DNA from: a bacterium | GTDB lineage: Bacteria; Thermosulfidibacterota; Thermosulfidibacteria; Thermosulfidibacterales; JALWSI01 | Assembly: GCA_027080315.1 (NCBI GenBank) | Contig: JALWSI010000134.1 | Coordinates: 1-20,495 of the forward strand | Length of the DNA: 20,495 nucleotides | Reading direction: 5' to 3' | Part shown: positions 1 through 13,846 of the stretch, in pieces | How the letters are laid out: each line of letters opens with the position of its first letter | How positions within the stretch are numbered: position 1 is the first letter of the stretch | Notes under the pieces: generated by a model | What the model was told of the DNA's origin: nothing | What the model saw: the letters and a program-made list of their open reading frames with translations, nothing else | The model's database searches: none | Translations under genes and position numbers: made by a program

Positions 1-2342
<2,342 letters not shown>

Positions 2343-2484
2343 TTAGATCTCTCCTCCTCTCGGTTCTTAAAGAATAAACCCCGTCCATCTTCATGTCCAC
2401 AGACCCACAGGCTAAAGAAGCCCTTGCACAAACCCAATTTCTGAGTAAATTGCAATAGAAGCTGATAACTAAGGAGGGGCTTTT
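2343..2484. promoter_or_regulatory. Divergent intergenic region between ccdA-like gene and gdh
   Basis: This 142-base AT-richer gap must hold the start signals for both divergent units. For the plus strand the best sigma70-like candidate is TTGCAC (2424-2429), a 16-base spacer and TAAATT (2446-2451), about 35 bases before the gdh ATG. The gdh ribosome site AAGGAGG (2471-2477) is strong and well spaced. On the minus strand there is a GAGGAG site and only a weak TATTCT-like -10. The promoter assignments are inference from motif resemblance. Confidence 0.35.
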
Positions 2485-5400
2485 ATGCTTAGAGGATCGT
2501 TCTTTGAGAAGGTGAAGCAAGAGCTGTTGGAAAGGCTAAAGGGTGAAGATAGGGACACCATAGAGAAGTTTATTGAAGGGCTATTAAAAAGCTCACCCCC
2601 CGATCTTCCAGAGCTTGCCACTGTGCAAGAGGTTGCCGAAATGGCAGATTCGCTGTTCTCGTTCTTCAAAGAGCGTTCTCCCAATGAGATAAAGGTTGAG
2701 GTGAAACCCGGCCCCAACGACACCACCATGGTGATGAGCTGTCTTGAGGATCAGGTCTTCATCATTGACACCATAACCCTCTACTTGAAAAAGAAAGGTT
2801 ACCCTTACAGGTTTGTGCTTCATCCCATTCTCAATGCCATCAGAGAGAAGGAGGCTCTAAAAGGAATAGGAGAGGGCGGCACTCCTGAATCAATAAACCT
2901 AACCTTGGTAGAAAAACCTCTCTGCAGTGAAGATTGTGCCTCTCTGGCAAGCGAGATCAAGAAGCTGCTCACAATAACACGGGATGTAGTCTCAGACTTC
3001 ACCCGCATGAAGCGGCTTATGAGAATAGCCATAAGCGACATTGAGTTCAGAGGAGAAGCCGGCTTTGTTCCCATGGAAGAGGTTGAAGAGATCGTAGCTC
3101 TTCTTGAGTGGACCCTTGACAACAAGTTTGTGTTCTTGGGCAGCATTGAGGCTGAGAAAAAGAAGAAGGGAATAAGCCTTAAGTGGGATAGCGGTCTTGG
3201 TGTATGTCGCAAGGAACACCAGGATTTTGCCTACAGCCTTGATTCTTCTGAGATTGAAGAGCTATTGCTTGATAGCGAAGATAGGCTCGCTGTTGCATCA
3301 AAGCTTGACGCAGAGTCCACCATACACAGAGCAGGCAAACTCGATTTATTAGCGGTTCAGATGGCCCCAGACGAAAAAGGTGCCACAAAAGGGTGGTACG
3401 TGTTTGTGGGGCTTCTCACTAAATCCGCTGTGCTTGAGAAGGGCACAGAGGTACCTTTAGTACGCAACAAGCTGAGAGAGGTGGCATCCAAACTCGAGCT
3501 TGCTCCTGGTAGCCATAGCTATCGTGAGGCTGTGGGGATCTTCAACACCATCCCCGTTGAGGCACTATTCCTCTACGATGTTGAGCATCTCACCAAGGTG
3601 TTTGAAGGAGTGCTGGGGCTTGGAAAGGAGTTTGAACCCAAGGTCTTTGCGGTAGAGGGAGGCAAGGGAATCCACTCCATACTGGTGGTGATCCCACAAG
3701 AGCGCTACAGCGCCACCTTAGAAGAGGAGATTGGTGATTTTCTGCGAGAGGCTTACGAGGCAACCTACATCTACAGCACCTTCTCCTCCATGGAAGGTGA
3801 AAAAGGCTTTATTCACTATTTCGTATCCACTCCCGCGGAAGATGTTAGCATTCCAGTAGAAGAGATAGAGGAGAAGGTTAAAGAGCTCTCAACAACCTGG
3901 GAGGACAGGCTGTATCGCATTATTCAACGGGAGATCGGCAACAAGAAGGCCGCTGAGCTGTACACAAGGTACAAAGGAACCTTCAACGAAGAGTACCGCT
4001 CCTTATTCTCTCCAGAGAAGGCCTATGAAGATCTCCAGATGATTGAGAGGCTTCTTGAGACAAAAGATCTTCAGGTGAATATCTCTGAAGATAAGGAAGG
4101 ATTCTCTCACATCACCATCTTTAGCCCCCAGCCCTTAATTCTGAGCCAGACAGTGCCCATACTGGGCCATCTCTTCTTGAAGGTTCTGGACGAAATCTCA
4201 ATAGAGCTTCTTATTCAAGGGGACCAGAAGATCTACCTGCACGCCTTCAGGGTGTTACAGGCCAGCGGAGAGCCTCTGCCTCAGGAGGTACCCTTAGCGG
4301 AAGCCCTCATTGCAGCCATAACCGGGGTGGTAGAAAGCGATCCTTTGAACCAGCTGGTTGTTAAGGCGGCTCTTCCCTGGGAGGTTGTGGATCTTTTGAG
4401 AACCTACAGAAACTACCTGAGGCAGATAGCCCCGGCCTACACCCGCACGTCCATCTACAACGCCTTCCTTGAGTACCCAGAGATAACCACCACCATCTGG
4501 GACTATTTTGACGCCAAGTTCAATCCCATTAGGGAAGAGAGCGTAGAAGAGAGAAAGAAGGGGTTATTGGAAGAGGTTAAGGATAACTTTTTAAAGCAAC
4601 TGGACAAGGTTCAGGACCTCACCTCTGACAAGATATTCAGGCTCTTCTTCAACATGGTAGAGTCAACTTTGCGCACCAACTTTTACAAGAGCAGCCGTTC
4701 CCATCACTACATCTCCATAAAGATAGACTGCAGCAAGATACTGGAGATGCCCCTGCCCAGGCCCATGTATGAGATCTACGTCCACGAAGTGGGCATGGAG
4801 GGAGTTCACCTGAGGGGTGGCAAGGTTGCCCGTGGAGGTATCAGGTGGAGCGACAGGCCTGACGACTTCCGTACCGAGATCCTGGGCCTTATGAAGACCC
4901 AGATGGTGAAGAACGCTATCATCATTCCAACAGGTTCCAAGGGCGGCTTCGTTATCAAAGTCAGAGGGGCCTCTCGTGAAGAGACCAACAAGCTGGTAAC
5001 CGAGAAGTACACTGTGCTTATGAGCGGCATGCTTGACATCACCGACAACGTGGTTGACGGAAAGCCGGTTCATCCCCAAGAGGTGGTGTGCTACGACGAC
5101 TACGATCCCTATCTGGTGGTGGCTGCAGACAAGGGGACGGCCCATCTATCCGACACTGCAAACGCCATCTCCCAGTCTTACGGATTCTGGCTTGACGATG
5201 CCTTCGCGTCAGGAGGCTCTGCAGGGTACGACCATAAGAAGCTGGGCATCACCGCAAAGGGAGCCTGGGTCAACACCCGTCGCCACTTCATGGAGCTGGG
5301 CATTGACCCCAACAAAGACAACATCACCGTGGTTGGTATAGGAGACATGGGAGGCGACGTCTTTGGCAACGGAATGCTGCTTAGCCAGAGCATCAAGCTG

Positions 5401-7221
5401 GTTGGAGCCTTCAACCATATTCACATCTTCCTTGATCCCGATCCCGACCCACTAACCTCCTGGAAAGAGAGAGCGCGACTCTTCAAAGAGGGCAAGGGCT
5501 GGGATCACTACAACAAGGAGCTGATCAGCGAAGGTGGTGGAGTATTCTCTCGTCAGGCCAAATCGGTACCCATCTCGCCACAGATGCAGAAGGTTCTTGA
5601 CACAACAAAGAGCGAGGCCAGCGGAGAAGAGGTGATCAGGATGCTCCTAAAGGCCCCTGTTGACCTCCTATGGAACGGCGGCATTGGCACCTATGTGAAG
5701 GCATCCTCAGAGACCCACCAGGATGTGGGGGATCACTCCAACGACAGCGTCAGGGTTGATGCAAAAGACCTGCGCTGCAGGGTTGTGGGAGAGGGAGGCA
5801 ATCTTGGATTCACCCAAAGGGCCAGGGTTGAGTATGCCCTTCATGGAGGGGCCATCTACACAGACGCCCTTGACAACTCCGCCGGCGTTGACATGTCGGA
5901 CCACGAGGTGAACCTCAAGATTCTCTTCCAGGGCATGTTGAAAAAGGGCACCATGTCTCGGGAGGAGCGCAACAAGCTACTTGAAGAGCTCACCCCAGAG
6001 GTTGTGGACCACGTTTTAAGGGACAACTACGAGCAGAGCCTCGCTGTCAGCCTTGATGCTATTCGTTCCAAAAAAGACATCTCTCCCTTCAGCACAACAA
6101 TTGACCTTCTCATCAGAGAGAGTCTCTTTGACCCTGCCGAGACCGTTGTACCCACCCACAGCGAGAGGCAGGCCCGTAAAAACGCAAAAGAGGGACTCTT
6201 TAAGCCTGAGCTTGCCCTGCTTTTGGGCCACGTTAAGCGCTGGGTGAAGAGAGAGCTTGAAGGATGCGAGTTTATTGATGCCGAGTACCTAAACGATCTT
6301 CTGGCCTCTTACTTCCCCGTCTCCTTGAGAGAGCGGTTCAAAGAGGCGATAGAGCAACACCTGTTGCGCAGGGAGATCCTCATAACCCTCATAACCAACA
6401 GGGTGGTCAACCAGGCAGGTCAGTCCTTCTTCGCCTCCCTTCAGGCAGAGATGGGGACCTCTGTTGGAGAGGTGGCGGCAGCGTACATGGTCATGGATGG
6501 CATCCTTGAGGCGGACACCATCAGGGATAAGATAAACTCCTTGGACTTCAAGGTACCTGCCGAAGTCCAGTACAAGGCCCTGATAGCCCTGGATGATCTC
6601 GTAGGCGGGCTTGTTCGCTGGGCCCTTCTCTTCGGCGGCGACTGGATGCCCTTAAAAGAGGTGATCTCAAAGTACAACAAGCTGGTTTACATGCTGGTTG
6701 AAGAGCTGCCAAACATACTTACACCATCGGCTCTTGAGAGCTACCACGCCCAGAGGGCAGAGCTTGAAAAGCACGGCATCCCACAAAAGAGCGCCTCTCT
6801 CATCGCTGCAGGCAGATACGTGCTTAACTTCATGGATGTGATAACCTTAGCTGAGACCCTGAACACCTCTAAGGTGAAAGAGCTTGCAGTGATCTACACA
6901 GAGATGATGGAGAGGTTCCAGTTCTTCGTGGTGCAAGACGCCCTGAAAGAGGATCCCAAAGAGACCCTTTGGGATCACCAGGCATATACCCTGCTTGAGA
7001 AGGATCTCTGGAACATAAAGCGCACTTTGGCCTCTCAGCTGTATGAACACTACGAAAAGACAAATGACATAAACGCCATGTGGAAGGCCCATCGCCAGGC
7101 CAATCCTCTCCTCTACACCTATCTTGAAGAGGTGGCCAACAGCGTTAAGAGAAGACACGCCACGGGCCTTGCGGTTTGGAGCGTAGTGCTAAGACGTATT
7201 CAGGAGACTCTTCAGGGATAG
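2485..7221 (+). CDS. gdh: NAD-specific glutamate dehydrogenase, large (about 180 kDa) class
   Basis: Oxidatively deaminates L-glutamate to 2-oxoglutarate and ammonia, mainly a catabolic reaction in this class, in the cytoplasm. At 1578 residues it matches the large bacterial NAD-GDH family (Pseudomonas GdhB/Streptomyces type, about 1600 residues), not the usual 450-residue enzymes. Roughly the first 600 residues are the regulatory ACT-like region typical of the family. The catalytic core follows, with GGIRWSDRPDDFRTE around 784-798, substrate lysines Lys804/Lys809, the catalytic lysine Lys819 in PTGSKGG, the general aspartate Asp882 in VVAADKGTA, and the nucleotide-binding GIGDMGGDVFGNG from Gly951. 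A conserved VVGEGGNLGFTQRARVEY and a long helical C-terminal region complete it. Strong AAGGAGG before the ATG. It heads the plus-strand unit with a solute-binding protein and proC, pointing to glutamate/proline turnover. No frameshift seen. Confidence 0.97.
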   Translation: MLRGSFFEKVKQELLERLKGEDRDTIEKFIEGLLKSSPPDLPELATVQEVAEMADSLFSFFKERSPNEIKVEVKPGPNDTTMVMSCLEDQVFIIDTITLYLKKKGYPYRFVLHPILNAIREKEALKGIGEGGTPESINLTLVEKPLCSEDCASLASEIKKLLTITRDVVSDFTRMKRLMRIAISDIEFRGEAGFVPMEEVEEIVALLEWTLDNKFVFLGSIEAEKKKKGISLKWDSGLGVCRKEHQDFAYSLDSSEIEELLLDSEDRLAVASKLDAESTIHRAGKLDLLAVQMAPDEKGATKGWYVFVGLLTKSAVLEKGTEVPLVRNKLREVASKLELAPGSHSYREAVGIFNTIPVEALFLYDVEHLTKVFEGVLGLGKEFEPKVFAVEGGKGIHSILVVIPQERYSATLEEEIGDFLREAYEATYIYSTFSSMEGEKGFIHYFVSTPAEDVSIPVEEIEEKVKELSTTWEDRLYRIIQREIGNKKAAELYTRYKGTFNEEYRSLFSPEKAYEDLQMIERLLETKDLQVNISEDKEGFSHITIFSPQPLILSQTVPILGHLFLKVLDEISIELLIQGDQKIYLHAFRVLQASGEPLPQEVPLAEALIAAITGVVESDPLNQLVVKAALPWEVVDLLRTYRNYLRQIAPAYTRTSIYNAFLEYPEITTTIWDYFDAKFNPIREESVEERKKGLLEEVKDNFLKQLDKVQDLTSDKIFRLFFNMVESTLRTNFYKSSRSHHYISIKIDCSKILEMPLPRPMYEIYVHEVGMEGVHLRGGKVARGGIRWSDRPDDFRTEILGLMKTQMVKNAIIIPTGSKGGFVIKVRGASREETNKLVTEKYTVLMSGMLDITDNVVDGKPVHPQEVVCYDDYDPYLVVAADKGTAHLSDTANAISQSYGFWLDDAFASGGSAGYDHKKLGITAKGAWVNTRRHFMELGIDPNKDNITVVGIGDMGGDVFGNGMLLSQSIKLVGAFNHIHIFLDPDPDPLTSWKERARLFKEGKGWDHYNKELISEGGGVFSRQAKSVPISPQMQKVLDTTKSEASGEEVIRMLLKAPVDLLWNGGIGTYVKASSETHQDVGDHSNDSVRVDAKDLRCRVVGEGGNLGFTQRARVEYALHGGAIYTDALDNSAGVDMSDHEVNLKILFQGMLKKGTMSREERNKLLEELTPEVVDHVLRDNYEQSLAVSLDAIRSKKDISPFSTTIDLLIRESLFDPAETVVPTHSERQARKNAKEGLFKPELALLLGHVKRWVKRELEGCEFIDAEYLNDLLASYFPVSLRERFKEAIEQHLLRREILITLITNRVVNQAGQSFFASLQAEMGTSVGEVAAAYMVMDGILEADTIRDKINSLDFKVPAEVQYKALIALDDLVGGLVRWALLFGGDWMPLKEVISKYNKLVYMLVEELPNILTPSALESYHAQRAELEKHGIPQKSASLIAAGRYVLNFMDVITLAETLNTSKVKELAVIYTEMMERFQFFVVQDALKEDPKETLWDHQAYTLLEKDLWNIKRTLASQLYEHYEKTNDINAMWKAHRQANPLLYTYLEEVANSVKRRHATGLAVWSVVLRRIQETLQG

Positions 7222-7229
7222 TTTACAGA

Positions 7230-8384
7230 TTGAAAAGAGCAAAAATTCTCCTCGCAGGGCCGCTGCTTTTGGTGGCGGCCCTGTTGCTTATGGCACCTTT
7301 CGGCTTAGCCGAAACGGTGGTAATACCAGAGCCCTCTGGGGGCAAGATGATGAAGCAGCAGGATTCACAGCCCCCTTCTGGGCAAAGCCAAGAGGAAGGC
7401 CCCACATCCCAAAAACCAGAAAAGGCCAAAGAGCCTGAGCCTCCCTGGCCCTACCGATTCTCGCGACCTTACAGGGTCTTTCTGGTCTTTGACAGGCCCA
7501 AAGAGGACAAGTGGGTGGTGGAGAGCCGTAAAGGCATAGAGAAGGCCTTAAAGAACTTCCCCGTGGTATTCAAAGACGCCTATCTTGTGGGAGACGACAA
7601 CGCCACAAATGCCACTGCCAAAGAGATTCAAAGAACCATAAGGCAATGGCATCCTGCAGTTGTGATAGCCTCGGGAGAGGTGAGCGCCCAGAAGGTTGTA
7701 AAACCCCTGTTGGACACCCCCGCTGCCTTTGTGGTCTTTGGAATGCACAGCAATCCCAAGGACCTGGGATTCATCTTAGACAGTCCGCAGCATCCAGGAC
7801 GCAACGTCACTGGGGTGTTGCCGGCATCTCCCTTAATCAGGGCTATGAGGCTTGCAAAAGAGATCTGCCCCAAGATTGAGCGAGGGGTCTTCCTGACAGA
7901 CACCCCTGCTGAATCCCGGGTGGTGCTCAAAGACCTGCAAAGGGAGTTTCTGCCTTTCAAGATAGAGTCTATCCAGATCGCCGAGACCCAGGAGAGGTGG
8001 CTTAAAATAATGAAGGGGCTGAGGTTCTCTGTTGATGCGGTGATCATCTCAGATGTCTCTCACCTGACAACGGACTCCGGAGACACCGTAAACACCGAGA
8101 AGCTGGTGAAGAAGGCCATTGCCCACAGTCCCCTCATTGGCATAGCCCTTTCAAAGGAACTGGTGAGATACGGGATTCTCGCGGGGGTAGAGGTAACCCC
8201 CTATCTCTACGGAGAAGAGGCGGGCAAGAAGGCAAGAGAGGTGCTCAACGGGGTGGCGGTGGGCGAGGTCTCCTTCTCGGCTCCCCCTGAGCCCTCTGTC
8301 TTCGTTAACCTTTCCCGAGCGAGGCAGCTGGGGCTTGAGATTCCTCCATCGGTGCTCATGGAGGCAGACTACATATACCCTTAG
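7230..8384 (+). CDS. Exported ABC-type substrate-binding protein (ABC_sub_bind/TrpX-like family)
   Basis: A periplasmic-binding-protein-like fold of the family Pfam calls ABC_sub_bind, whose members bind small molecules such as amino acids for an ABC importer. I chose a TTG start at 7230, giving 384 residues, because it places a clean signal peptide at the N-terminus (LKRAKILLAG..., cleavage likely after FGLA at residue 27). A TTG at 7176 would add 18 residues and overlap gdh by 46 bases. Only a modest AGGGA precedes 7230. Residues 28-75 are a Pro/Gln/Glu/Lys-rich linker, unusual for the family. Family hallmarks are RNVTGV (about 191-196), the late GILAGVEVTPYLYGEEAG segment and the C-terminal LGLEIPPSVLMEADYI. 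No permease or ATPase gene is nearby, so it is an orphan receptor. Its place between gdh and proC suggests an amino-acid ligand, which is inference. Confidence 0.83.
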   Translation: MKRAKILLAGPLLLVAALLLMAPFGLAETVVIPEPSGGKMMKQQDSQPPSGQSQEEGPTSQKPEKAKEPEPPWPYRFSRPYRVFLVFDRPKEDKWVVESRKGIEKALKNFPVVFKDAYLVGDDNATNATAKEIQRTIRQWHPAVVIASGEVSAQKVVKPLLDTPAAFVVFGMHSNPKDLGFILDSPQHPGRNVTGVLPASPLIRAMRLAKEICPKIERGVFLTDTPAESRVVLKDLQREFLPFKIESIQIAETQERWLKIMKGLRFSVDAVIISDVSHLTTDSGDTVNTEKLVKKAIAHSPLIGIALSKELVRYGILAGVEVTPYLYGEEAGKKAREVLNGVAVGEVSFSAPPEPSVFVNLSRARQLGLEIPPSVLMEADYIYP

Positions 8385-8404
8385 GCAGCAGTGAGGAGGA
8401 CACC

Positions 8405-9205
8405 ATGAAAAGAGTAGGGGTGATTGGAACAGGAAACATGGGTGGAGCCCTGCTCCAAAGGGCAGCCCAGATCGGCAAAATGAAAGGCTGGAGCTTCACG
8501 GCCTACGACATAGAGAAGGAAAGGCTTCAAGAGGTGTGCCAGAGCTGCGGAGCCACACCCGCTCAAAGCAACAGGGCTCTTGTAGAAGCATGCGACACTA
8601 TTGTGCTGGCGGTGAAACCCCAGGTGTACAAGGATGTTATGAAAGAGGTGGCAGAGGAATTGAAAGATAAGACCCTCATCTCCGTGATGGCAGGGGTATC
8701 TCTCTCCAGCCTAAAAGAAACAGGGGGCGGCTCATGCAGACTGGCGAGAATAATGCCCAATCTGCCGGCCTTGATTGGCCAGGGTGCCCTTGCCTGTGCC
8801 TGGGGCGAGGGATGGTCAGAGGAAGAGAAGTCTGAGGTGCTTGAGATGCTCAGCGCCATGGGCACTGTGGTGGAGCTGCCTGAGAGCCTCATGGACGCAG
8901 TAACAGGGCTCTCTGGAAGCGGTCCTGCCTATCTCTTTCTCTTTGTTGAGGCCCTCTCTGACGCCGGAGTAAGGGCGGGCATTCCCCGGGATACTGCATA
9001 CAAGCTGGCCCTTCAAACGGTAATTGGCAGCGCCCAGTTCTTGAAAGAGAAGGGGCTTCATCCTGCCCTGGCCAAAGAGATGGTGACCTCCCCTGGGGGA
9101 ACAACCATAGCTGGCCTGCATGTTATGGAGAGTTACGGCCTTAAAGGCATAATCATGGATGCCGTGGTGGCCGCCACTGAACGTTCAAGAGAGTTAGGGG
9201 GCTGA
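8405..9205 (+). CDS. proC: Pyrroline-5-carboxylate reductase
   Basis: Catalyses the last step of proline synthesis, reducing 1-pyrroline-5-carboxylate with NAD(P)H in the cytoplasm. The 266 residues are a normal family length. The N-terminal Rossmann fold opens with MKRVGVIGTGNMGGAL. The conserved RIMPNLPA lies near 115-122. The C-terminal dimerisation/active-site part contains TGLSGSGPAY (167-176) and MVTSPGGTTIAGL (226-238), both diagnostic for ProC. The ATG is preceded by GAGGAGG (about 8393-8399). The stop overlaps the next start by one base (TGATG), so tadA is probably translationally coupled. With gdh upstream it forms a glutamate/proline pair, although proA and proB are not in the window. 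Confidence 0.98.
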   Translation: MKRVGVIGTGNMGGALLQRAAQIGKMKGWSFTAYDIEKERLQEVCQSCGATPAQSNRALVEACDTIVLAVKPQVYKDVMKEVAEELKDKTLISVMAGVSLSSLKETGGGSCRLARIMPNLPALIGQGALACAWGEGWSEEEKSEVLEMLSAMGTVVELPESLMDAVTGLSGSGPAYLFLFVEALSDAGVRAGIPRDTAYKLALQTVIGSAQFLKEKGLHPALAKEMVTSPGGTTIAGLHVMESYGLKGIIMDAVVAATERSRELGG

Positions 9206-9702
9206 TGCCAAGGGACCTGAACGTAATAGACCCTGAAGCAGACTGCGACATCTCGCGGTTCATGCTCATAGCCTTAGAGGAAGCCACCCAGGCCATGGTT
9301 GAAAGAGAGGTGCCTGTGGGGGCAGTGCTGGTGAAAGAGGGCGAGGTGCTGGCCAGGGACCACAACCGCAAAGAGCAGCTTCAGGACCCCACTGCCCACG
9401 CGGAGATGCTGGTGATGCGGGCAGCGGCAGAGACCCTTTGCTCTTGGCGTTTAGAGGGCTGCGAGCTTTACGTAACCCTGGAGCCCTGTGCCATGTGCGC
9501 AGGAGCCATGGTGCAGGCACGCCTTGGCAGGCTCATCTTTGGTGCCTGCGATCCCAAGGCCGGAGCAGTAGTATCGCTCTACAACCTATTGGACGACAAT
9601 AGGCTGAACCACCGTGTTCCTTGGGTAAAGGGGGTTATGGAGCGGGAGTGTGGCGAGATACTGAGGGAGTTCTTCTCTCAATTGCGGAACCATCAGCCTT
9701 AG
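9205..9702 (+). CDS. tadA: tRNA adenosine(34) deaminase
   Basis: Deaminates the wobble adenosine of tRNA-Arg(ACG) to inosine. The 165-residue protein has the cytidine-deaminase fold with the zinc and proton-relay motif DPTAHAE (His65, Glu67) and TLEPCAMCAGA (Cys95, Cys98), plus the VPVGAV strand near 36-41 and DPKAGA downstream; together these fit TadA better than free-nucleoside deaminases. The first 15 residues (MPRDLNVIDPEADCD) are an extension before the usual FM..AL..A helix. The start is fixed by the one-base overlap with proC. It is followed at once by a tRNA gene and fmt, giving a small tRNA-centred cluster. A guanine-deaminase-like alternative is unlikely because of the specific motif spacing and the context. 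Confidence 0.96.
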   Translation: MPRDLNVIDPEADCDISRFMLIALEEATQAMVEREVPVGAVLVKEGEVLARDHNRKEQLQDPTAHAEMLVMRAAAETLCSWRLEGCELYVTLEPCAMCAGAMVQARLGRLIFGACDPKAGAVVSLYNLLDDNRLNHRVPWVKGVMERECGEILREFFSQLRNHQP

Positions 9703-9710
9703 GGTATAGC
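9682..9710 (+). promoter_or_regulatory. Candidate promoter of tRNA-Ser
   Basis: TTGCGG (9682-9687), a 17-base spacer and TATAGC (9705-9710) overlap the end of tadA. The -10 ends 7 bases before the mature tRNA 5' end, and the intervening stretch is GC-rich (TTGCCCC). A GC-rich discriminator is a known feature of stringently controlled stable-RNA promoters. The -35 matches consensus at only three positions, so this is tentative. Confidence 0.4.
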
Positions 9711-9717
9711 TTGCCCC

Positions 9718-9806
9718 GGAGGAGTGGCCGAGTGGACGAAGGCGGGTGACTCGAAATCACCTGTACCCTATGGGTACCGGGGGTTCGAATCCCTCCTCCT
9801 CCGCCA
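9718..9806 (+). tRNA. tRNA-Ser (anticodon CGA), reads UCG
   Basis: An 89-base class II tRNA with encoded CCA. The acceptor stem GGAGGAG (9718-9724) pairs perfectly with CTCCTCC (9796-9802), followed by discriminator G and CCA (9804-9806). The anticodon stem GGTGA/TCACC encloses the loop CTCGAAA, giving anticodon CGA. The long variable arm folds as GTACCC-TAT-GGGTAC, as expected for serine. The T loop is TTCGAAT on a stem GGGGG/CCCTC. It lies between tadA and fmt, 15 bases after the tadA stop and 25 before the fmt ATG, so it may be processed from the operon transcript as well as made from its own promoter. Confidence 0.98.
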
Positions 9807-9831
9807 TTTTAAGTCTGTTGGAGATTGATTG

Positions 9832-10770
9832 ATGAGAGTGGTCTTTGTGGGCACCTCGCCCTTTGGAATACCCACCCTGCGGAGGCTGAAGGAGGCAGGG
9901 GTTGAGATACCTTTAGTTGTCACCCAGCCCGACCGACCCAAAGGCAGGGGCAGAAAGCTGGCTCCAACCCCTGTGAAGGAGGCGGCGACAGAGCTTGGTC
10001 TGCCGATTATTCAGCCTGAACGTATTGGAGATGCCAAGGAGCAGATAGCCGCCGAGAAGCCCCATATTCTGCTTGTGGTCTCCTACGGCCAGATACTGCC
10101 TCAAGAGGTGCTTGAGATACCCTCAATTGGGCCTCTGAACATTCATCCATCCCTCCTGCCAAGGTATAGGGGAGCGGCACCCTTGCAGCGGGTGCTCATG
10201 AACGGTGAAACCGAGACGGGAATCTCACTAACCTGGATGGTGAAAGAGCTTGATGCAGGACCCGTATTTGCAGCAAAGCGCTGCGCCATTGATCCCAACG
10301 AGACCTACGGCGAACTGCACGACCGTTTGGCCAAAGAGAGCGCAGAGTTTCTCATTGAGCATCTCCCGCAACTTGCGGAGTTAACAGAACCGATCGGTGA
10401 ACCCCAGAACCCCGCAGATGCCACCTATGCCCCTTCCATCAAGAAGGAGGAGACAAAGATAGACTGGTCTTTACCTGCCCAGAAGGTGCACAACCTGGTG
10501 AGGGGCATCTCTCCAGCCCCAGGGGCCTCAACAACTCGCAAGGGCAAGCAGCTTAAAATCTTGAGAACCGAGCTAACCGATGCAAACGGCGAGCCGGGAG
10601 AGGTGGTTACTGCAAACCCCAAGACCGGAGAGCTTGTGGTGGCCTGTGGCGAGGGGGGGGTCAAAATCCTTGAGCTTCAACCCCAGGGGAAGAGGGTGAT
10701 GAAGGCAAAGGAGTTTCTGCAGGGCTACCAACCCAGGGGAGGGGAGAGGTGGTATGATAACAAAAATTGA
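9832..10770 (+). CDS. fmt: Methionyl-tRNA formyltransferase
   Basis: Transfers a formyl group from 10-formyl-tetrahydrofolate to initiator Met-tRNA. The 312 residues are the normal family length. The N-terminal formyltransferase domain begins MRVVFVGTSPFGIPTL and carries the basic loop DRPKGRGRK. The catalytic residues are Asn103 and His105 in NIHPSLLPRYRGAAP and Asp141 in KELDAGPV, matching the known Asn/His/Asp triad. The C-terminal OB-like tRNA-binding domain starts near residue 205. I used the ATG at 9832, with TGGAGA 8 bases upstream, over an in-frame TTG one codon earlier. The usual neighbour def (peptide deformylase) is absent. The 3' end converges on the minus-strand nuclease-like gene with only 27 bases between and no obvious terminator hairpin. 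Confidence 0.98.
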   Translation: MRVVFVGTSPFGIPTLRRLKEAGVEIPLVVTQPDRPKGRGRKLAPTPVKEAATELGLPIIQPERIGDAKEQIAAEKPHILLVVSYGQILPQEVLEIPSIGPLNIHPSLLPRYRGAAPLQRVLMNGETETGISLTWMVKELDAGPVFAAKRCAIDPNETYGELHDRLAKESAEFLIEHLPQLAELTEPIGEPQNPADATYAPSIKKEETKIDWSLPAQKVHNLVRGISPAPGASTTRKGKQLKILRTELTDANGEPGEVVTANPKTGELVVACGEGGVKILELQPQGKRVMKAKEFLQGYQPRGGERWYDNKN

Positions 10771-10797
10771 CCGTTTTCACAAGAATACCTTCTAAAG

Positions 10798-11577
10798 TTA
10801 TGATGTTAGTTTTTTAGTCAACTCGATGATTAGTTCTCTGGTTGCTAGTGAAGGATCCTTCGCTTGTATGTATTCTATATCAGAAAACCCATCCCCTCGT
10901 TTTCTATTCAGCGCTGGTTCAACAGTCTCAATAAGAATAGCCTCTGCTGTTTGTAGAAATAAACTTTCATCAATATTAATAGCAACTTTCTCTAACTTGC
11001 CTTCTTCGGTAACACTTAGAAGACCAAACCACGAGAACCGATCCCAACGTCCCCGCAGCCTGTCTTGAGTGTGTTCATATAACCTCTTTCCCAGAGGTCT
11101 ATCCGTAGCCCTACCAACATATACGACCTCTCTTCCGTCGTGTAACAAATATATCCCAATTTGGCCATAAAAGTCGACTGTTTCTGCACCAATACTTTGC
11201 TGACCCAAAAGTTTAGGTTGGGGTTTCCAGTCTACGAGAGAGCGATCCCAATACATGCCAAAAGCTTTAACAACTGATATTTCGTCATCTCTTAGCTTTT
11301 CTTCAACTTTTTTCTTATCTGCAACATCTCCAGCGTCGGGTTCTTCAAATTCTCTTAACCCATATCTTCCACGTTCAACCCGAATAAAAGGAGACTTTGC
11401 TCCCTCTCTACGTATTGATGTAGTAATACGAGAGTTTACAGTATTTTTGGGAGTAGCACCCACTTTTTTCCTGAGTCCTAGCGTAACAATACGCTCAGCG
11501 ATTTCTCCACAGGTCATCGGTTCCCCTGCTTCTCGGAGGACCTTTTCAATAGCTTTTCTCCAAGATGTTTCACTCAT
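10798..11577 (-). CDS. HARE-HTH / GIY-YIG nuclease-like two-domain protein
   Basis: A 259-residue protein with two recognisable parts. Residues about 3-75 resemble a HARE-HTH winged helix (SWRKAIEKVLREAG, ...GEIAERIV, ...FIRVERGRYGL), a domain proposed to read DNA or chromatin state and common near restriction and modification enzymes. Residues about 138-230 look like a GIY-YIG nuclease: GIYLL (Tyr143), VVYVG (Tyr153), GKRLYEH (Arg165, His169), AEAILIE (Glu212) and Asn224. The spacings Tyr-Tyr 10, Arg-His 4 and Glu-Asn 12 agree with the UvrC catalytic set as I remember it, so the site looks intact. The ATG at 11577 is preferred over GTG at 11580, from the position of AGGGTG upstream. The gene is AT-richer than its neighbours and stands alone on the minus strand, suggesting horizontal acquisition. 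DNA cleavage and any defence role are inference. A site-specific endonuclease or repair factor is equally possible. Confidence 0.8.
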   Translation of the reverse strand: MSETSWRKAIEKVLREAGEPMTCGEIAERIVTLGLRKKVGATPKNTVNSRITTSIRREGAKSPFIRVERGRYGLREFEEPDAGDVADKKKVEEKLRDDEISVVKAFGMYWDRSLVDWKPQPKLLGQQSIGAETVDFYGQIGIYLLHDGREVVYVGRATDRPLGKRLYEHTQDRLRGRWDRFSWFGLLSVTEEGKLEKVAINIDESLFLQTAEAILIETVEPALNRKRGDGFSDIEYIQAKDPSLATRELIIELTKKLTS

Positions 11578-11648
11578 CACATCACCCTACTATTTAGCCT
11601 CTAATCCTTATTTCATCTATGTTTTCCTTAATATTATTTACTATTTGT

Positions 11649-11729
11649 TGTCAATGGAAAGTTGCGGTAACGAAAGAAAAAGCCAAATGAGTAACACCTT
11701 ACCTCTTCGTGCCTAACCCAACTGTCAAT
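11649..11729. repeat. Imperfect inverted repeat with nested hairpin, flanked by TGTCAAT
   Basis: In the AT-rich gap upstream of the HARE-HTH gene, 11660-11723 forms an imperfect palindrome. The arm beginning AGTTGCGGTAACGAAAG can pair with the arm ending in CTTCGTGCCTAACCCAACT, with bulges. An inner hairpin GAGTAA-CACC-TTACCTC lies at 11689-11705 in the centre. The heptamer TGTCAAT occurs on both sides (11649-11655 and 11723-11729). On the minus strand the left copy also reads as a perfect TTGACA -35 box for the nuclease-like gene, though a good -10 is not evident. The element could be a small mobile remnant, an operator or a structured RNA. Confidence 0.45.
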
Positions 11730-11739
11730 TAACAATTCC

Positions 11740-11774
11740 AAAAAAGGGGCGGGGTTTTAACCCCACCCCTTTTG
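11740..11774 (-). terminator. Rho-independent terminator of aconitase
   Basis: Read on the minus strand this is AAAAGGGGTGGGGTT, a short A-rich loop, then AACCCCGCCCC followed by a T run, 15 bases after the aconitase stop. The stem is nearly perfect with one mismatch. Because A and T runs sit on both sides, it may act in both directions, but no plus-strand gene ends just upstream. Confidence 0.87.
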
Positions 11775-11788
11775 CTCATCCATGCACT

Positions 11789-13774
11789 CTATTCCGTGAT
11801 CTCAATCTCCTTAAAGCTCTTACCAGCCTGGGTCTTGGCAACAGCCATGGTTCCACCAAGCAGAATAGTCTTTCTCTCACGCTCAGAGAGGTTGTAGGTG
11901 AGAGGAATATCAATTCCCTTGGTCTCGTTACGCATTATGATCTCGCCCCTGTCCTCAATCAGGGCCTTGCGCACATCCTTGATCACCAGCTTGTCGCCTT
12001 GGTCAATCTTATCGTAGTCGTCAGGGTTCTTGTAGTAGAGGGGCAGAATACCAAAGTTCACCAGGTTTGCCCTGTGGATACGCTCAATGGTCTTTGCCAC
12101 AACCGCCTTAACCCCGAGGTACATGGGACAAAGAGCAGCGTGCTCACGGGAAGATCCCTGACCGTAAGAGTCACCGGCAACGATGATGTTGTGAATCCCC
12201 TTCTCTTTGTTCTCAAGGGCCCGGGAGGGGAAGGTGGGATCTGTGGTCTCAAAGACGAACTCTGCGTATTTGGGAACATTTGAGCGGTATTTCAGACGCT
12301 GACCAGCAGGCATGATGTGATCTGTGGTGATCTTGTCTCCCACCTTTATGGTGGCCTCTCCCACTATGTCCTTGGGCAAGGGCTCGCCACCAGGAGGATC
12401 CTTGATGTTGGGGCCTTTGTAGATCTCAACAGAGTCGGGATCCTCAGCAGGAGGAATCACCAAGCCGTCGTCAATTAGGAACTTGTCAGGAACCTGGATG
12501 TCGGGATACTGGACCCCAAATCTCTCAGGCAGATCCCTGGGATCCATGAACTCTCCAGCCAGTGCGCAGGCTGCCGCTGTCTCGGGGCTCACAAGGTAGA
12601 TACCGGCGGTTACGGTGCCGGAACGACCGTAGAAGTTCCTGTTGTTGGTTCTCACGCTAACCGCATTGTTGCGTGGTGCCTGGCCTGCTCCGATGCAGAA
12701 GCCACAGGCGTTCTCCATCAGCCTGATACCGGCATGCAACAGGGCGTCAAGGCCCCCTTCCTGGGTGATCATACGTAGCACCTGCTTGGAGCCTGGGGCC
12801 ACAATCATGTCAAGATCAGGATGAACCCTTCTGCCTTCCAAGATCTTGGCAACGGTCATAAGGTCTTTGTACGAGGAGTTGGTGCAAGATCCCACGCAGA
12901 CCTGGTCAACCTTTAGTCCCGCCAGCTCCCTAACAGTTGTCACATTATCGGGGCTGTGGGGCTGGGCCACCATGGGCTCGAGCTCAGAGAGGTTGATCTC
13001 AATCACCTTGTCGTACTCGGCATCGGGATCAGCCTTGATCTCTACCCACTGATCTCCTCTGCCCTGGGCCTCCAAGAAGGCCTTGGTGGTCTCGTCAGAG
13101 GGGAAGACAGAGGTGGTAACTCCCAGCTCTGCTCCCATGTTGGTAATGGTGGCGCGCTCGGGCACCGAAAGGGTCTTCACCCCGGGACCAAAGTACTCAG
13201 CTATCCAACCCACATTGCCCTTGGTGGTGAGTATAGAGAGCACCTTCAAGATCACGTCCTTTGCAGAGACAAAGGGCTGCAACTTGCCGGTCAGTTTGAT
13301 TCCAACAACCTTGGGTGCTGGAAGATAGAAGGGCATTCCTGCCATAGCCGCCGCCACATCAAGTCCACCCGCACCGATGGCGATCATGCCGATACCACCG
13401 CCGGTGGGAGTGTGAGAGTCAGACCCCAAAAGGGTCTTTCCTGGGCGACCAAAGCGCTCAATGTGAACCTGATGGCAGATACCGTTTCCTGCTTTGGAGA
13501 GATAGAGACCGTACTTTGCAGCAAAGGTCTGAAGATAGCGGTGGTCATCTGCGTCTTCAAAACCCATCTGAATGGTCTTGTGATCAATGTAGCTCAACGA
13601 GATCTCTGTTTTAACTCTATCCACGCCCATCTGCTCAAACTGCAGATCGGCCATGGTTCCCGTGGCGTCTTGGGTGAGGGTCTGGTCTATCTTAATGGCT
13701 ATCTCTTGCCCTGGTACCAGCTCCCCCTCAACCAGATGGTCCTTCAGAATCTTCTGGACGACATTCAAACCCAT
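11789..13774 (-). CDS. acn: Aconitate hydratase, Aquifex-type
   Basis: Interconverts citrate and isocitrate in the TCA cycle using a [4Fe-4S] cluster. From the ATG at 13774 it is 661 residues, close to the Aquifex-type aconitase subfamily and shorter than the roughly 890-residue AcnA. Cluster ligands are Cys297 in CVGSCTNSS and Cys357/Cys360 in NACGFCIGAG. Other signatures are LGSDSHTPTGGG (about 116-127) and the C-terminal swivel-domain motif GDSYGQGSSREHA, which holds the catalytic serine region (about 534-546). I chose the ATG preceding GLNVVQKIL because AAGGAGG lies 7 bases upstream. An in-frame start at 13846 would add 24 residues but overlaps the predicted promoter. The gene stands alone with its own promoter and terminator, divergent from a methyltransferase gene. 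Confidence 0.96.
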   Translation of the reverse strand: MGLNVVQKILKDHLVEGELVPGQEIAIKIDQTLTQDATGTMADLQFEQMGVDRVKTEISLSYIDHKTIQMGFEDADDHRYLQTFAAKYGLYLSKAGNGICHQVHIERFGRPGKTLLGSDSHTPTGGGIGMIAIGAGGLDVAAAMAGMPFYLPAPKVVGIKLTGKLQPFVSAKDVILKVLSILTTKGNVGWIAEYFGPGVKTLSVPERATITNMGAELGVTTSVFPSDETTKAFLEAQGRGDQWVEIKADPDAEYDKVIEINLSELEPMVAQPHSPDNVTTVRELAGLKVDQVCVGSCTNSSYKDLMTVAKILEGRRVHPDLDMIVAPGSKQVLRMITQEGGLDALLHAGIRLMENACGFCIGAGQAPRNNAVSVRTNNRNFYGRSGTVTAGIYLVSPETAAACALAGEFMDPRDLPERFGVQYPDIQVPDKFLIDDGLVIPPAEDPDSVEIYKGPNIKDPPGGEPLPKDIVGEATIKVGDKITTDHIMPAGQRLKYRSNVPKYAEFVFETTDPTFPSRALENKEKGIHNIIVAGDSYGQGSSREHAALCPMYLGVKAVVAKTIERIHRANLVNFGILPLYYKNPDDYDKIDQGDKLVIKDVRKALIEDRGEIIMRNETKGIDIPLTYNLSERERKTILLGGTMAVAKTQAGKSFKEIEITE

Positions 13775-13816
13775 GGTTCTTCCTCCTTGCGGGGTGATAT
13801 TCCTCTCTGGGCGGGC

Positions 13817-13846
13817 TATATACCCAAAAGGGGTTGGCGTTGTCAA
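13817..13846 (-). promoter_or_regulatory. Sigma70-like promoter of aconitase
   Basis: On the minus strand a perfect TTGACA (13846-13841) is followed by an 18-base spacer and TATATA (13822-13817), giving a predicted transcript start near 13810 and a leader of about 36 bases. Its position upstream of the AAGGAGG site supports the ATG at 13774 as the true aconitase start. Confidence 0.65.

Follow-up and report, generated by a model that had tools for sequence, protein, structure and literature searches.

What is a lone gene that couples a putative DNA-reading domain to a nuclease-like domain doing between two housekeeping genes of a bacterium? The stretch of 20,495 nucleotides that we analyzed (the window) carries such a gene on its minus strand (10798..11577), an intact open reading frame that encodes 259 amino acids from an ATG at position 11577. 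Translation could alternatively begin at an in-frame GTG (11580), and the start residue is about the same among homologues. The original prediction had described an AT-rich islet with a solitary HARE-HTH/GIY-YIG fusion gene that could be a modification-dependent restriction enzyme or serve another single-gene defence function. Here, we ask how much of this description holds and which function best fits the family.

An AT-rich gene beside an apparently inverted block

The flanking genes are those that had been named: fmt lies on the plus strand (9829-10770) and the aconitase gene acn on the minus strand (11789-13846). The interval between them (10771..11788) has a GC content of 0.411, compared with 0.541 in the rest of the window. 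The islet gene itself (GC 0.418, GC3 0.30) is likewise AT-richer than its surroundings, as had been noticed, and falls outside the range of the other window genes (GC 0.50-0.58, GC3 0.53-0.73). Just past the aconitase stop, a strong terminator-like hairpin with a T run (11742..11773, minus strand; -25.4 kcal/mol, z -3.9), which was missed by a consensus scan, separates the islet gene from acn transcription, which makes a separate promoter for the islet gene probable. A promoter consensus scan upstream of the gene returned one weak candidate only (11660-11633). The aconitase open reading frame at 11789-13846 is listed with a TTG start that is too far upstream; relatives start about 20 residues later, and the 'internal stops' that they seem to contain are an artefact of this start.

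None of the eight other genomes examined from this small phylum carries the islet gene, which matches the reading of the islet as acquired. Conserved presence across the phylum with the same neighbours and normal GC, named beforehand as the pattern that would argue for a core function, is thus absent on account of both the 0/8 relatives and the abnormal GC. In the relatives, the two genes found here at 1-2342 (minus strand) come directly after fmt on its own strand, and acn lies elsewhere, not adjoining fmt. Inverting positions 2343-10770 restores the relatives' gene order, so this block (2343..10770; gdh-sbp-proC-tadA-tRNA-Ser-fmt) is apparently inverted and the islet borders it, just outside its right end; the source genome is a 253-contig assembly, which bears on the reliability of the fmt-islet-acn junction. 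A tRNA-Ser(CGA) gene (9718-9806) occupies the gap between tadA and fmt, near the rearranged region. Horizontal acquisition of the islet gene is supported.

A HARE-HTH domain joined to a divergent GIY-YIG nuclease

The N-terminal domain (residues 5-77; 11347..11565, minus strand) is a HARE-HTH winged helix, as anticipated: it matches Pfam PF05066 with an E-value of 1.4e-19 (70.7 bits against a curated cut-off of 25.9), and the same domain was detected in 36/36 aligned homologues. In the AlphaFold2 model of the whole 259-amino-acid protein (pLDDT 87.5), it resembles the winged helices of RNA polymerase delta, Z-alpha and linker-histone domains. HARE-HTH domains also occur in the human chromatin proteins ASXL1 and HB1. 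In the passage of PMC11037411 that cites Aravind and Iyer 2012, the domain is put forward as a reader of modified bases, with cytosine the likelier one. A variable linker (residues 78-104; 11266..11346, minus strand), low in identity, in part low in pLDDT and 14-45 residues long in homologues, connects it to the nuclease half. Across phyla, mean pairwise identity is 49% for the HARE-HTH reader and 65% for the nuclease.

The C-terminal half (residues 105-240; 10858..11265, minus strand) is predicted to adopt the GIY-YIG nuclease fold in its extended form. Sequence profiles barely see this divergent subfamily: the best Pfam match, GIY_YIG_2, stays below threshold at 14.1 bits (cut-off 22.4; E 0.047), PADLOC offers a hint at E 0.0058, and a Pfam GIY-YIG match at E<0.01 appears in only 2/36 homologues. 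Rather, the assignment is carried by predicted fold and residues. When the AlphaFold2 model of residues 97-259 (pLDDT 88.6) was searched with Foldseek, the GIY-YIG domain of UvrC ranked first (E 6e-3, probability 1.00). VIA-align Z-scores were 8.1 for UvrC (84 residues, 2.7 Å), 7.1 for T4 EndoII, 6.0 for I-TevI, 5.4 for Eco29kI and 4.9 for CMoRE; these matches score above the unrelated rows beneath them, and GIY-YIG enzymes make up almost all of the top PDB rows. The structural check that had been proposed therefore sustains the domain call. So do the six catalytic residues, Y143, Y153, R165, H169, E212 and N224, which bear the numbers given originally, are correctly placed and are invariant in 78/78 homologues. 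Their spacing (Y-10-Y-12-R-4-H and E-12-N) is very close to that in UvrC, where Y19, Y29, Y43 and N88 are the positions substituted in the Foldseek-matched PDB entries. The family signature RWDRFSWFG (residues 177-185; 11023..11049, minus strand) hardly varies, even in the stand-alone relatives from phages and plasmids. A sequence search of the PDB gave no credible solved-structure homologue, returning only designed TPR repeats over 15-25 residues, and a PHROGs search gave no match. We rejected an identity with PADLOC's PDC-S14, as the match is too weak.

A solitary and mobile gene family

At least 211 genomes encode relatives in one genome scan. The best 80 of these relatives are full-length, share 44-53% identity with the window protein and span about 19 phyla. 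The homologue tree mixes phyla, and protein identity between phyla reaches 87%, some of these genomes being metagenome bins, which may be contaminated. When homologous loci are compared, similarity at the DNA level usually ends no more than tens of bases from either end of the gene; it extends up to about 125 bases past the gene in the closest pairs, is gene-bounded even at 95% identity, and continues into long shared flanks in only one case (L011/L012, both bins from a single family). In 94% of 72 loci, the gene is richer in AT than the flanking DNA, and the mean GC difference is -7.4 points. Close pairs display dN/dS values of 0.035-0.09, indicating strong purifying selection, and only 3/80 copies contain an in-frame stop. 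All-against-all clustering of 734 neighbours at 79 loci revealed no recurrent neighbour (no cluster in more than 4/79 loci), and we rejected a fixed partner gene on this basis. The absence of recurrent neighbours, the gene-sized transfer, the low dN/dS and the scarcity of stops together identify a solitary, functional and mobile gene. In line with the original prediction, no methyltransferase partner is found among the scanned window genes, and none recurs at the 79 homologous loci.

An annotation note on a phage, together with the gene-sized transfer, had raised the idea of an integron cassette; we rejected it because 0/76 downstream regions contain an attC site, in a search whose positive control worked. 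Repeats that are not attC-like flank some homologues (L020, L023, L045, L067 and L072). The L020 repeat reads as a putative repeated protein C-terminus resembling that of Eco57I-type methylases, and at L067 a near-identical 94-bp repeat with a strong hairpin (7018-7111 and 7834-7927) brackets the gene that precedes the nuclease homologue.

Relatives also reside on mobile elements. One full-length copy lies on the 8.9-kb plasmid pDMC2 and another, in a prophage-like setting, in a viral contig (L084), near resolvase, terminase and methylase genes; among 2.9 million viral contigs, full-length members number one. The nuclease half alone is found in a phage contig between terminase and portal genes (L087:7995-8537), beside portal and terminase genes in Synechococcus phage Ssp-JY39 (L089:4010-4504), and beside an Eco57I-like methylase gene in Methylorubrum. 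A further HARE-less relative (L002, 1165-3281) adjoins the C-terminal fragment of an Hma-type helicase with a NOV_C domain (PADLOC HmaA match), a neighbour typical of defence. The HARE-less form in phages suggests a packaging or homing role, and its existence makes HARE look modular, gained or shed by a nuclease that is also in use among phages.

Candidate functions and known relatives

The family's surroundings point modestly to a defence setting, in a signal carried by few loci. Counting homologues near defence genes had been proposed as a check. Type I HsdM lies within 10 kb of the gene in 4/36 carrier genomes against 0.45 expected, a ninefold enrichment (P ~0.001). The PADLOC comparison of neighbours with 146 control genes is blurred by generic helicase models and shows a small contrast once such matches are discarded, lending only modest support. 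Most direct neighbours are diverse ordinary or unknown genes; individual loci place HsdR just upstream (L049), PDC-S41 (L006) or PDC-S21 (L045) next to the gene, or HsdM (L010) nearby.

The methyltransferases of the carriers narrow the possible targets. C5-cytosine methyltransferases are encoded in 21/36 carrier genomes, so blanket 5mC-dependent cutting is unlikely, and type I-like N6-methyltransferases in 26/36. Common methyl marks are therefore not simply toxic alongside the nuclease; what remains is that it senses hypermodified bases, that it depends on particular motifs, or that it senses no modification. In the genome that carries the window, neither PF00145 nor PF02384 has a match at E 1e-10, and one N6/N4 methyltransferase is encoded elsewhere.

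The reading that best accommodates these observations, which we hold with moderate confidence, is a restriction nuclease of type IV-like, modification-dependent character that is encoded by one mobile gene. We infer that the protein cleaves DNA, prefers modified DNA and acts against invaders; closely similar two-domain enzymes are likely to destroy incoming DNA, which may be phage DNA carrying chemical marks. The horizontally acquired, free-standing endonuclease would act alone: its HARE-HTH winged helix would bind and select target DNA, and the GIY-YIG domain, held on a flexible linker, would cut it with the help of a single metal ion. As the nuclease comes without a cognate methyltransferase, self DNA must be spared through the reader's recognition, most likely by a preference of the reader for a mark on the invader, such as a modified base of phage or plasmid DNA.

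Tentatively, the nuclease might instead attack invading DNA without sensing base modification, its HARE-HTH domain recognizing a sequence or structure absent or rare in the host; possible targets are phage or plasmid replication intermediates, with EndoII-type degradation or plasmid exclusion as the outcome. That carriers tolerate C5 and N6 methyltransferases, that T4 EndoII is among the structural matches, and that the conservation of both domains across phyla hints at a single shared target would all fit, and RNA polymerase delta and other relatives of HARE-HTH are not known to be modification readers. A stable unmodified target, however, would be expected to lead to cutting of the host at least sometimes, and the closest characterized two-domain analogues are modification-dependent (PMC11037411, PMC12923530).

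We consider it improbable that the gene is a selfish nuclease, free-standing homing or phage packaging-associated, that gained a HARE-HTH domain and spreads by cutting empty sites. The HARE-less domain beside terminase and portal genes in two phages, the gene-sized transfer and the position of the window copy at a rearrangement edge favor this idea, yet full-length members sit at unrelated sites with no single conserved insertion site, are rare in viral contigs, and combine low dN/dS with few broken copies, unlike the usual decay of homing genes. A host nuclease in DNA repair or regulation, with a UvrC/Slx1-like housekeeping role, would agree with UvrC as the closest fold and with the strong purifying selection; we hold it to be very unlikely, as the gene is missing from 8/8 relatives and patchy elsewhere, AT-rich and mobile, and has no operon partner.

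Returning to the modification-dependent nuclease, it would be a further and doubtful step to see in HARE-HTH a genuine reader of modified DNA, perhaps hypermodified cytosine, and in this family the first recognized widespread one in which it serves a single-gene GIY-YIG defence nuclease. Such reading has been proposed since 2012, and in the literature searched we found neither biochemical work that tests it in a restriction enzyme nor experiments on any member of this family. Both the reader and the divergent nuclease subfamily appear uncharacterized in that literature; the architecture may stand in the 2012 HARE-HTH survey. A compact enzyme of 260 amino acids that is free of partners and conserved over about 19 phyla lends itself well to such a test, and if HARE-HTH reads modified DNA here, a long-standing prediction becomes directly testable. 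Modification dependence, if true, would extend the type IV toolbox by one pairing of reader and nuclease and possibly by a tool for detecting modified bases.

A single-gene combination of reader and GIY-YIG restriction nuclease is itself a kind already known. The extended GIY-YIG fold, with an N-terminal strand before the motif, is shared with T4 EndoII (DenA), a phage enzyme that degrades host DNA, and with R.Eco29kI, which has a cognate methyltransferase; both are without a HARE-HTH reader. HARE-HTH is joined to a nuclease also in the HARE-HTH-REase fusions of Dnd and BREX neighbourhoods, which are proposed to discriminate modified DNA (PMC10853773, PMC12839542); there, the nuclease is of the PD-(D/E)XK type and belongs to multi-gene systems, whereas here a GIY-YIG nuclease stands alone. 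The closest characterized kinds are CMoRE and the 6mA-dependent wH-GIY-YIG enzymes. CMoRE / PD-T4-3 is a single-gene, 5hmC/5ghmC-dependent GIY-YIG nuclease (PMC12923530) to which the nuclease half is structurally similar (Z 4.9), but its nuclease is N-terminal and followed by an unrelated sensor, whereas ours is C-terminal, and its motif is of the GIYxY-YIG type, whereas ours reads GIYLL...YVG and lacks the third tyrosine. The 6mA-dependent Ahi29725I and Apa233I of Acholeplasma combine in a single gene a GIY-YIG nuclease with a winged-helix-type reader, which the name of the fusion (wH-GIY-YIG) puts first, and methyltransferases are rarely nearby (PMC11037411). Their reader is a DpnI-like wH domain that senses Gm6ATC, whereas here it is HARE-HTH by profile, a domain that PMC11037411 separates from the DpnI-type wH by an extra helix and a suggested role as cytosine reader; with these enzymes, our comparison is by description.
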